The notes below the pieces were generated by a model. The model was not told the DNA's origin. It ran no database searches and was given only the letters and a program-made list of their open reading frames with translations. From assembly GCF_042453785.1 (NCBI RefSeq), contig NC_091661.1:31363501-31427500 (forward strand): DNA of 64,000 bases, given 5' to 3'. Of this stretch, positions 50,480 through 59,224 are shown piece by piece (positions within the stretch are counted from its first letter, which is position 1; each line of letters starts with the position of its first letter). The DNA comes from Malus domestica (taxonomy: Eukaryota; Streptophyta; Magnoliopsida; Rosales; Rosaceae). Made by a program: the position numbers and the translations under genes.

Positions 50480-51020
50480 TCATGGGTTCCTGCCACTGCC
50501 GGGTTTCCTTCTAGGGTCGTGTTTAGGGTTGGGTCCTGCTTCGTCGTAGTCGTGCACTGCTGCATCGAGCCTCCAAAGCTTCCTCGAATATATTCGGACG
50601 CCATTCTTCGTAAACATAATAAAGAATTTGTTAGCAAGAGAAATTAAGCATGATCCGGAAAATTAATCTTAATCGTAACTAATGATGTATTTATGATAAA
50701 AACCCTAGAACAAACAGTAGATATTCTACCTTGTGAAGCAAGTGAATGGGATCAATGTCCTTGAAGCCTTCATTAACAATGCCTACAAAGTGTACTTATG
50801 TCAGCATATTAGGCTACCCAAAAAAGTTACATGCAAATAGAAATGGGATTTAAGGTAAAGCGGACGAGCCATATATGCACTCAAGTTCACATCTCCCTCG
50901 AGATGCATTATATCATGCAGAAGAAGAGTATATGTGCTCACCTGAAGATAAGGGAAGTATGAGAAGTGCTGAGAGGAAAAGCACTTGCAGAAGAAGAAAG
51001 CCATTGATTCTAACAGCCAT
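50480..51020 (-). CDS. PSY: PSY-type tyrosine-sulfated peptide precursor
   Basis: Three small exons on the minus strand: 51020-50942, 50782-50730 and 50605-50480. They total 258 nt, 85 aa. The start MAVRINGFLLLQVLFLSALL, followed by ILPLSSG, is a clear signal peptide with cleavage likely near residue 27. After a spacer (IVNEGFKDIDPIHLLHK) the C-terminus carries VHDYDEAGPNPKHDP. This matches the plant peptide containing sulfated tyrosine (PSY) core, whose type member is DYGDPSANPKHDPGVPPS. The acidic residue before Tyr is what the tyrosylprotein sulfotransferase needs. The mature peptide is a secreted growth signal. The tail after NPKHDP (RRKPGSGRNP) differs from PSY1. It is convergent with TAP38. 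All splice sites are GT-AG and in phase. Confidence 0.85.
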
Positions 51021-51174
51021 GGCTTATTTTCTTCTTCCTTTCCTTGTATGATGAATAGTTCAAATGGTGAAGAATCCTGGATGGTTCTTGCAAGGGGAGG
51101 TGGGGGAAGAGAGGGTGGGCTTTATGCTAACTGGGAATCAGAGTAAGGGAGTGAGTGGAAGCGTATGCACAATG

Positions 51175-51182
51175 TGTGTGTT

Positions 51183-51252
<70 letters not shown>
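51175..51252. repeat. Compound (GT)n(GA)n microsatellite upstream of PSY
   Basis: About 13 GT followed by over 20 GA dinucleotides, 160-230 bp upstream of the PSY start codon on its promoter or leader side. On the gene strand it reads CT then AC. Confidence 0.93.
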
Positions 51253-56058: not shown

Positions 56059-58755
56059 TCAAACTGAAATGGCACGACTGATGGCCATCTTGGCCCATTC
56101 TGCAGATTCTTTAATCAAATTGTCTTCGGAAGACAAGCACTCATTTAAAAAGTCTCTGCACGATTGAGATTGCTGTATCAAAGAACCAGCATTATTTCCC
56201 AGTGTATCTGCTAGATCTCCAAGGACACCAATGGCTGTTTTCATCACCACTTCATCCCTACATGCAAGTAAATTAAAAATAAAATGTCAGAAAAACACAA
56301 CAAAAAATTGTAATTTGTAATAACAACGGAACAGTAGATCAACTCACATATCTTTCCTCTTGTATAAGCTATCCAAGAACTGCAGGATGTGTGGAGCATA
56401 AGATATCAAAACCTGGGTTTTCGGGGAGTTCTTGAAACCTTGGAAAATCCCAGAATATGCCTCCAAGATTCCGTTTCTCAGAGAATTGGTGTACTCTGTC
56501 ATTACATCATCAGCACTTGCTGTGTGAGCAGACATCTCTGCAGCACTCTGAATCATTGGCATGGCGTACATCAAGTACTTATCAAAGTTCTCTCCTATTG
56601 CAAGAGCTATATCACCAAAGCAGGAGAATATAGGAGGCTTTACGGAACGGTGCAACTGGTTGCTTGATAAATCCTTGAGAAGCTGGGTCATAATTCCATC
56701 ACAATAAGGCAGAATCTTATCTTCCACTGCTCTACAAATATCTCCTACAACACCAACCGTGACAGCACAGATTTGGTACTCCTCAAAATTTTGAAGCCCC
56801 ATTTCGAGATACTTGTAAAACTCAGGCAAGTATTTTGCAAAATCCGGGCCACTTGTATATGCAAGGGCCCCAATGGCAAGCATGGCTTCCTCATGGACAG
56901 TTGCACTTCTACAAGCAAATACCCTCAAGAAAAGTCCCATTATCTGATCTGCGTATGGCATGAACACATATTTTGTGGGCTCTGATGAACCTAGTTTCTG
57001 AATAATGACCTGTAAACACCCACAAAGAAGTCCTTGTAGTTCACTCTGCCTCTCTTTCTCATCAGATGCAAGCTGCTGGCCCTCAAGAGTCTGATGCAGT
57101 TCAATCATGATAACGGGAATAAGTTGCAACACCATGGGGGCAGTTTCATCAGTCGAACATCTGACGACTTCATTCAACGCTTCATATGCAGCAGTCCTTA
57201 ATCGTGATTCCCCCGCATCTGGTCTGTGGGTAACAGTGAGTAGAGCCTGTACAATTTCCTGGAAAAAAGGAGCAATGGGAGATGACGGGCCAAAATCCTC
57301 ATAACCCTGGGCCAGAAAATAGAGAGCACCGCATGCCTTCTCAGCGACATTTGGAACATCTTTCATGCTCTGAAGAAGAACTGTGATGATCTGTTGGCAG
57401 TTTTCTGGGGTAATTATGGGTGTATCCATAGTTGAACCATGAAGGAATTCAAAAATTCTTCCCAATGTCCAGGCAGTAGTGTCCTTCACATGGTTGTTTG
57501 GGTCCTTTGTTAAAGCACTGAGCATGAACGTCATAGCAACATTGACAATAGATGTTAACTTGTTTGGCGAAGGACCCTCCAAGATGGAACCAAACGCATA
57601 AGTAGCTGCTTCTCTTTGCCTCCAATCTGGTTTTGTTATGTTCTCTTCGATGAAAGGCATAACAAGTGGAACGATATCATCTCCCACTGTCCGAGCAACC
57701 AACCCAAGGCAAGTCCCCCCAGCCATAGCAATATTCCAAGCCCCATCTTCCTCCTGATCATCTTCCTGCTTAAGAAGCGTCTCCAAAAGCATAGGGACAA
57801 GGGCAGGGATTGCCTGCTTGATAAAGTAGAAGCAAGGAATATCAGAGTCCCCACTAAAATCACCCACATAATCATCCAATATATCGATCTCCTCATCACA
57901 AATCGAACTCCAGAATTCAATGGCTTGAAGAGCAACAGGTTCCTGGTCTTCCCTTACAGCTTTTGCTGTGATGCTAAATATGTCCTGAATGTAAGGGGCT
58001 AATTTCTCGTAATAAGATGAAGAAATGGAAACTAAACACTCAAAAGCTGCCTGTCGAATCTTCACTTCAGGGGACAGAGTTGCCTCACAGACAACTCTCA
58101 TAATATAATCACGCTCCATGTCATTGCTAAAATTGGCCTGAGCAAAATTCAAAGCATTGTACAGTGCTCGGGTAGCAGCAAGCCTAACATCATTGTTCCC
58201 TTCAGTTGCGTTCATACCCTGAACTACAGCTGTCAGTATTTTATTCACTTGATCTTGATCCACGACATCAGAAGAGATTTCCTCACACAAATACCCAAGA
58301 GTCTCTAAAGTGGCTTGCTTTACATGAGCTGGTAACCGGTGAATATTTGACAATAGTGATCCAATCAGTTCCGGCCACTGTTTCATGGGCAACTCAATGC
58401 CCGCAACCTTTGCAATAACTTGAGAGGTAGTTGAACGGGCATCAGCTACAGGAGAAGTGAGGATCTGTAACAAGAACATCTTAATCTGCGCTTTCACAGA
58501 AGTTTCCAATGCAAGCCATCTTTGAACAAGCTCCAACTTTCTAGGTTGTTCTTTAGCATCCAGGGCATTCTTAAGTATCAGACCTGCTAATTTTCGGCTT
58601 TCAACAGGTTTTTCTTCATTTGCTAGCTCTCTAGAAAGAGACAACAAGAACGATGAAAGATCTTGCTCCTGAAACTGTTTCAAACTCTCTTCAGCATGAT
58701 TCCGTACCGCTCCATCTATAGATTGAGCATTCAGAAGCACCTGGGTAACTTCCAT
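56059..58755 (-). CDS. KPNB1: Importin subunit beta-1
   Basis: Two coding exons, 58755-56348 and 56257-56059, total 2607 nt, 868 aa (Arabidopsis KPNB1 is 870). The start MEVTQVLLNAQSIDG was chosen because an intron acceptor (CTCGCAG) lies at 58769, 14 bases upstream; the longer open frame upstream is intronic. The whole protein is HEAT repeats: an N-terminal importin-N region (HAEESLKQFQEQDLSSFLLS, SRKLAGLILKNALDAKEQ), and an acidic loop with KQEDDQEEDGAWNIAMAGG, which in the family contacts Ran or cargo. The end is LIKESAEWAKMAISRAISV. It carries importin-alpha and cargo through nuclear pores; the Arabidopsis mutant affects ABA and drought responses. The single last intron splits Met-Asp codons (AT|G). 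Confidence 0.97.
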
Positions 58756-59224
58756 TGATGTATAGTATCTGCGAGTGTAAAATTTTAATTGCTTAGACAT
58801 ATTAGAGAAATACAAGAGGATAGGAGACAAATAAATCATAGCATTTTACAGAGAGCGAAAAACTGTCGAAAATCAGGTTTAGTAAAAATTAACATCATGC
58901 AAGAATAGAAAATTTATTAGGCTAGAAAATCTTTTCCGTTCCACCAATTTAGTTTCCAGAAAGACGTCTAACTGAAACTGCAAACCCCTGAATTTGCCCG
59001 GAAAACCATTCCCCAACGCACTGCAAGGTGTAACAATGCGTATATTTAACAATTGAAATCAGTAGGAACTACACACACAAACCTGGCGGGATACAACATT
59101 TTACCGCAACTCAGTAAATTATCAGGAAACCAAATTTTAACATAAAAGAAATTTACTACCCACACGATATACCTTAAAATTTTCAAATTCAAGCAACAAA
59201 AAACCCTACTCCATCTAATCACCA

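Follow-up and report, generated by a model that had tools for sequence, protein, structure and literature searches.

A gene for a predicted PSY5-type peptide precursor in three small exons of the apple genome

The minus strand of the window analysed here – 64,000 nucleotides of Malus domestica (NCBI RefSeq assembly GCF_042453785.1, contig NC_091661.1), or C1:31363501-31427500 – carries a candidate PSY peptide gene that poses three questions: whether a gene in such small pieces is real, to which Arabidopsis PSY it corresponds, and whether its C-terminal tail implies a new mode of processing or perception. A sequence-only reading had proposed an 85-codon gene in three exons of no more than 126 nt (79, 53 and 126), which ordinary ORF scanning misses. 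The exons, their coordinates and sizes, and the peptide all proved correct, with GT-AG introns and a single open frame, and the exons are indeed small enough to be missed. The features, in window coordinates, are as follows.

51020-50480, minus strand: PSY5-type gene, three exons spliced through two GT-AG introns.
50942..51020, minus strand: exon 1, 79 nt, ending in phase 1; start codon and signal peptide MAVRINGFLLLQVLFLSALLILPLSS.
50783..50941, minus strand: intron 1, 159 nt, GTGAGC...TTGTAG; its position and phase are the same in both copies on contig C7.
50730..50782, minus strand: exon 2, 53 nt, ending in phase 0; propeptide spacer.
50606..50729, minus strand: intron 2, 124 nt, GTAGAA...ACGAAG.
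50480..50605, minus strand: exon 3, 126 nt including the TGA; remainder of the spacer with RKLW, the PSY core, and the tail RRKPGSGRNP.
50513..50551, minus strand: PSY core DYDEAGPNPKHDP, residues 63-75, in which the predicted sulfated Tyr is residue 64.

The spliced exons amount to 258 nt, or 85 codons and a stop, and the precursor runs from a hydrophobic signal (MAVRINGFLLLQVLFLSALLILPLSS) through a spacer ending ...RKLWRLDAAVH to the core DYDEAGPNPKHDP and the ten-residue tail RRKPGSGRNP. Mean hydropathy of the signal segment peaks at 2.27 over residues 7-25, preceded by an Arg at residue 4, and the core agrees at every position with DYXXXX[AP]NXXHXP, given as the family motif in the available text of PMC7913133, including the DY pair for the predicted Tyr sulfation. 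The proposal of a signal peptide followed by a PSY core with an acidic residue before the Tyr is thus borne out by hydropathy, motif fit and the DY pair. ACGAAG makes a weak-looking acceptor for intron 2; of nine possible starts for exon 3, from -4 to +4, three keep the PSY frame, and of those three just one is preceded by AG. Judged on these features, the PSY5-type gene at 51020-50480 is real and correctly delimited, with its splicing predicted. TG and GA dinucleotide repeats at window positions 51173-51251 precede the start codon by about 150-230 bases; they are likely to be length-variable and possibly lie in the promoter or 5′ UTR.

The subtype was assigned by comparison with the mature peptides of the nine Arabidopsis PSYs. 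A table in PMC11534595, seen in excerpt, lists mature Arabidopsis PSY5 as DYDDAGPNPKHDPRRRPGGKG; the window peptide is identical to it at 12/13 core positions, an E for D being the sole change, and at 16/21 over the listed mature peptide, and both peptides have a tail beginning RR[RK]PG. The runner-up cores are those of PSY9 and PSY7 (10/13), so that both core and tail are nearest AtPSY5 among the nine. The two genes (AtPSY5 is AT5G53486) differ in the continuation of the tail, SGRNP in the window and GKG in AtPSY5, and in precursor length, 85 residues here versus 104 in the PMC11534595 listing; the same Arabidopsis gene has four splice variants according to the portion of PMC7913133 available. 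Arabidopsis PSY1 (AT5G58650) likewise has a small precursor and a DY...NPKHDP core, but that core matches at only 8/13 positions, which rules out a PSY1-like identity, and is followed by GVPPS rather than RRKPG. The alignment with PSY precursors that the sequence-only reading had called for, carried out with the mature peptides, therefore confirms membership of the family and replaces PSY1 as the reference with PSY5. By its predicted peptide the window gene is a clear counterpart of Arabidopsis PSY5 and adds one more ordinary member to an established family. This fixes gene model and subtype for a small peptide hormone of a kind that ORF scanning overlooks, and would be of use to work on the balance of growth and stress responses in fruit trees, for which the right Arabidopsis counterpart is PSY5 and not PSY1.

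Very probably the locus encodes a PSY5-type precursor that acts by an Arabidopsis-like route, homology being the ground on which its expression, sulfation, processing, receptor and role are predicted. The signal peptide would direct the precursor to the secretory pathway, where, in the Golgi, TPST would sulfate the DY tyrosine, and subtilases, perhaps including SBT6.1 at RKLW (residues 52-55), would cut off the pro-region. RKLW conforms to the RXLX version of the SBT6.1 site described for PSY1-5 in the available text of PMC7913133, although so short a motif is not strong evidence; at the corresponding place both C7 copies read RKLR. The secreted peptide would begin DYDEAGPNPKHDP, probably extending into the RRKPG tail, and would act on LRR receptor kinases of the PSYR type, binding them and holding their stress signalling off, which would allow cell growth. 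In Arabidopsis this route moves the balance from stress response toward growth, as described in the available parts of PMC7913133 and PMC10519359; the latter, a commentary, adds that mass spectrometry identified the mature, secreted forms of PSY5, PSY6 and PSY8, and names PSY5 and PSY6 as interaction partners of PSYR1-3. The window gene raises no new mechanism.

The gene is one of three PSY5-type copies. A protein search of the genome to which the window belongs (19 contigs, 651 Mb; E up to 1) gave seven exon matches, three to the window gene itself and four to two tandem genes on C7, about 4 kb apart and on the same strand: C7a at C7:35760383-35759830 (exons of 79, 56 and 126 nt) and C7b (L008) at C7:35756139-35755586 (79, 56 and 123 nt). 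Both keep the three exons, the splice positions and the intron phases, and their proteins are 73% (C7a) and 75% (C7b) identical to that of the window gene. Exon 2 is one codon longer in both and exon 3 one codon shorter in C7b. The core of C7a, DYDDTGSNPRHDP, is closest to PSY5 (10/13), and that of C7b, DYDDARYNHRHDP, in which Tyr replaces the [AP] before Asn and His replaces the Pro after it, is tied between PSY5 and PSY2 at 9/13 each; over the longer peptide C7b scores 61 against PSY5 and 52 against PSY2 (BLOSUM62), with alike proportions of identical residues (12/21 and 10/17). Upstream of and adjoining the window gene is an importin-beta-like gene (56344-58839), a single large frame of 831 aa, whose best non-self match lies at C7:35768201-35769136, with its order and strand relative to C7a kept. 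Since this neighbour too has a copy at the corresponding spot, C1 and C7 have a duplicated block in common. In the C7 counterpart of the importin-beta-like gene, a single TAA falls in frame within the match.

How far selection has held the window gene can be read from comparison of the copies. Between C1 and the C7 genes exon identity is 83-92% (exon 1, 91-92%; exon 2, 91% to both) and intron identity 59-76%, and differences are rarer at coding than at intron positions (Fisher p 1.1e-7 for C1-C7a and 3.1e-5 for C1-C7b), as they also are between C7a and C7b (8.4e-4). Coding exon lengths vary by single codons only, whereas intron indels include 29, 31, 1 and 2; whole-codon gaps are a product of a coding alignment built on protein, and the independent fact is the exon lengths themselves (53/56/56 and 126/126/123). 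The exons are thus constrained relative to the introns, but the codon-level measures do not support selection on the C1 protein. Over 83-84 codons (last codon dropped), a span in which a short precursor gives noisy estimates, dN and dS between C1 and C7a are 0.141 and 0.153 by NG86 and 0.148 and 0.136 by YN00, and between C1 and C7b 0.143 and 0.154 (NG86) and 0.152 and 0.129 (YN00). The resulting ratios for C1 against either copy are about 0.9 (NG86) and 1.1-1.2 (YN00), and that between C7a and C7b is 0.42 (0.064/0.153, NG86). Differences at codon positions 1, 2 and 3 number 13, 9 and 11 (C1-C7a) and 11, 11 and 11 (C1-C7b), with no third-position excess in C1 against either C7 copy. Together these two measures leave codon-level purifying selection on C1 unsupported.

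These ratios and flat position counts, and the existence of three copies, could mean that the window gene is a duplicate under relaxed constraint, perhaps becoming a pseudogene while the C7 copies cover its role. We think this unlikely: frame, start, stop and splice sites are all intact, the exons are more conserved than the introns, and it is the C1 core that stands nearest AtPSY5 (12/13, as opposed to 10/13 and 9/13). If any copy is decaying, C7b is likelier to be the one than C1. Slightly less probable again is a split of roles after duplication of the PSY5 gene, in which C1 has the core nearest AtPSY5 and C7b (DYDDARYNHRHDP) could act on the same receptors as a weak or competing ligand.

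The tail had been singled out as differing from PSY1 and as possibly altering processing or receptor choice. The difference from PSY1 is real, but the tail is not unusual, being that of PSY5, and the proposed consequences are unsupported, since the RR[RK]PG start is already found in mature AtPSY5; for the same reason there is no hint of novelty in either receptor or processing. A PSY precursor whose tail confers either is accordingly very unlikely, even though the terminal GxGRNP is common to all three copies (C1, C7a and C7b) and the tail is unlike that of PSY1. Set against it, besides that RR[RK]PG start, is the account in the available text of PMC10629525 that PSYR1-3 serve as receptors for all nine Arabidopsis PSYs. 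According to the same source, nematode peptides trimmed to the conserved domain retain their promoting effect on root growth, which is weaker in one of the three.

Resemblance to PSY by chance was assessed by scanning all six frames of the window, with 60 dinucleotide shuffles of the window as control. The AtPSY5 21-mer scores 98 (BLOSUM62) at the PSY5-type gene and 25 once the gene is masked, with a shuffle maximum of 32. For the nine Arabidopsis cores the window's best score is 77, again at the gene, and 42 with the gene masked; the latter exceeds the shuffle maximum of 39 and traces to a PEPDP repeat of low complexity near 6.8 kb. The 85-residue protein found no family in a Pfam search and no match below E 0.17 among PDB sequences, where six matches appeared, one to PvuII and the other five to ankyrin-repeat or DARPin proteins. 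A genome search with the 18-residue AtPSY1 peptide gave no match, although with so short a query absence means little. A CIF or RGF peptide was set aside on motif grounds, since NPKHDP is the block of PSY peptides. That the gene is a chance open frame, as its small exons and the empty Pfam search might suggest, is extremely unlikely, as the score of 98 far exceeds the best of the shuffles (32) and three conserved copies exist.

Literature on PSY in Malus, Rosaceae, apple and pear yielded no title on apple PSY peptides among the matches listed, which does not imply that the window gene is unannotated. An apple paper on 'PSY', PMC4517366, concerns phytoene synthase, and the pear Pyrus x bretschneideri is among the taxa of PMC13074997 (for TPST, in the part available), so that PSY genes of this close relative may already be counted there.

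The PSY5-type gene belongs to a wider set in this genome. At least seven PSY loci are present – three PSY5-type, two PSY6-type, and two with DYPGTGANNHHDP for which core exons only are counted – a tally drawn from five short patterns and the protein search, so that others may have been missed. Pattern matches lacking DY at the right spacing were excluded. NP[KR]HDP with AAR/AGR codons occurs at eight places genome-wide and its reversed control pattern at nine; six of the eight were excluded, leaving the window gene and C7a. The PSY6-type pattern lost none of its two matches (reversed control 0) and the pattern yielding the DYPGTGANNHHDP loci one of three (reversed control 0), while two further patterns lost both of their two matches each, with reversed controls of 8 and 1. 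The PSY6-type genes, with core DYPGSGANNRHTP, lie on C6 and C14 (L023 and L024), and the DYPGTGANNHHDP core exons on C12 and C14 (L028 and L029). The pairings C1-C7, C6-C14 and C12-C14 fit apple chromosomes.

The best three-exon models of the PSY6-type genes have exons of 82 and 59 nt and then a core exon of 111 or 135 nt; their introns are in phases 1 and 0. They share the exon layout of the window gene and are unlike it in core, spacer and tail, the agreement in layout being partly built in, as the models were restricted to three exons with sizes ranged from the window gene. A simple splice score ranked 42 candidates for L023 and 98 for L024; at L024 a score of 6.1 was shared by two models, of which the one matching the L023 model was taken. 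As far as the available text of PMC11641228 and PMC12153210 goes, some wheat PSY genes have two exons and the rest 'three introns', and those of tobacco two or three introns. Three small exons are therefore unremarkable, the layout being one that two PSY6-type genes fit and the wheat and tobacco genes also having exons that are few and small. At L028 and L029, where the core exon alone was viewed, the sequence reads DYPGTGANNHHDPRTP[VG]KA and then a stop, which marks another PSY type, apparently a duplicated pair.
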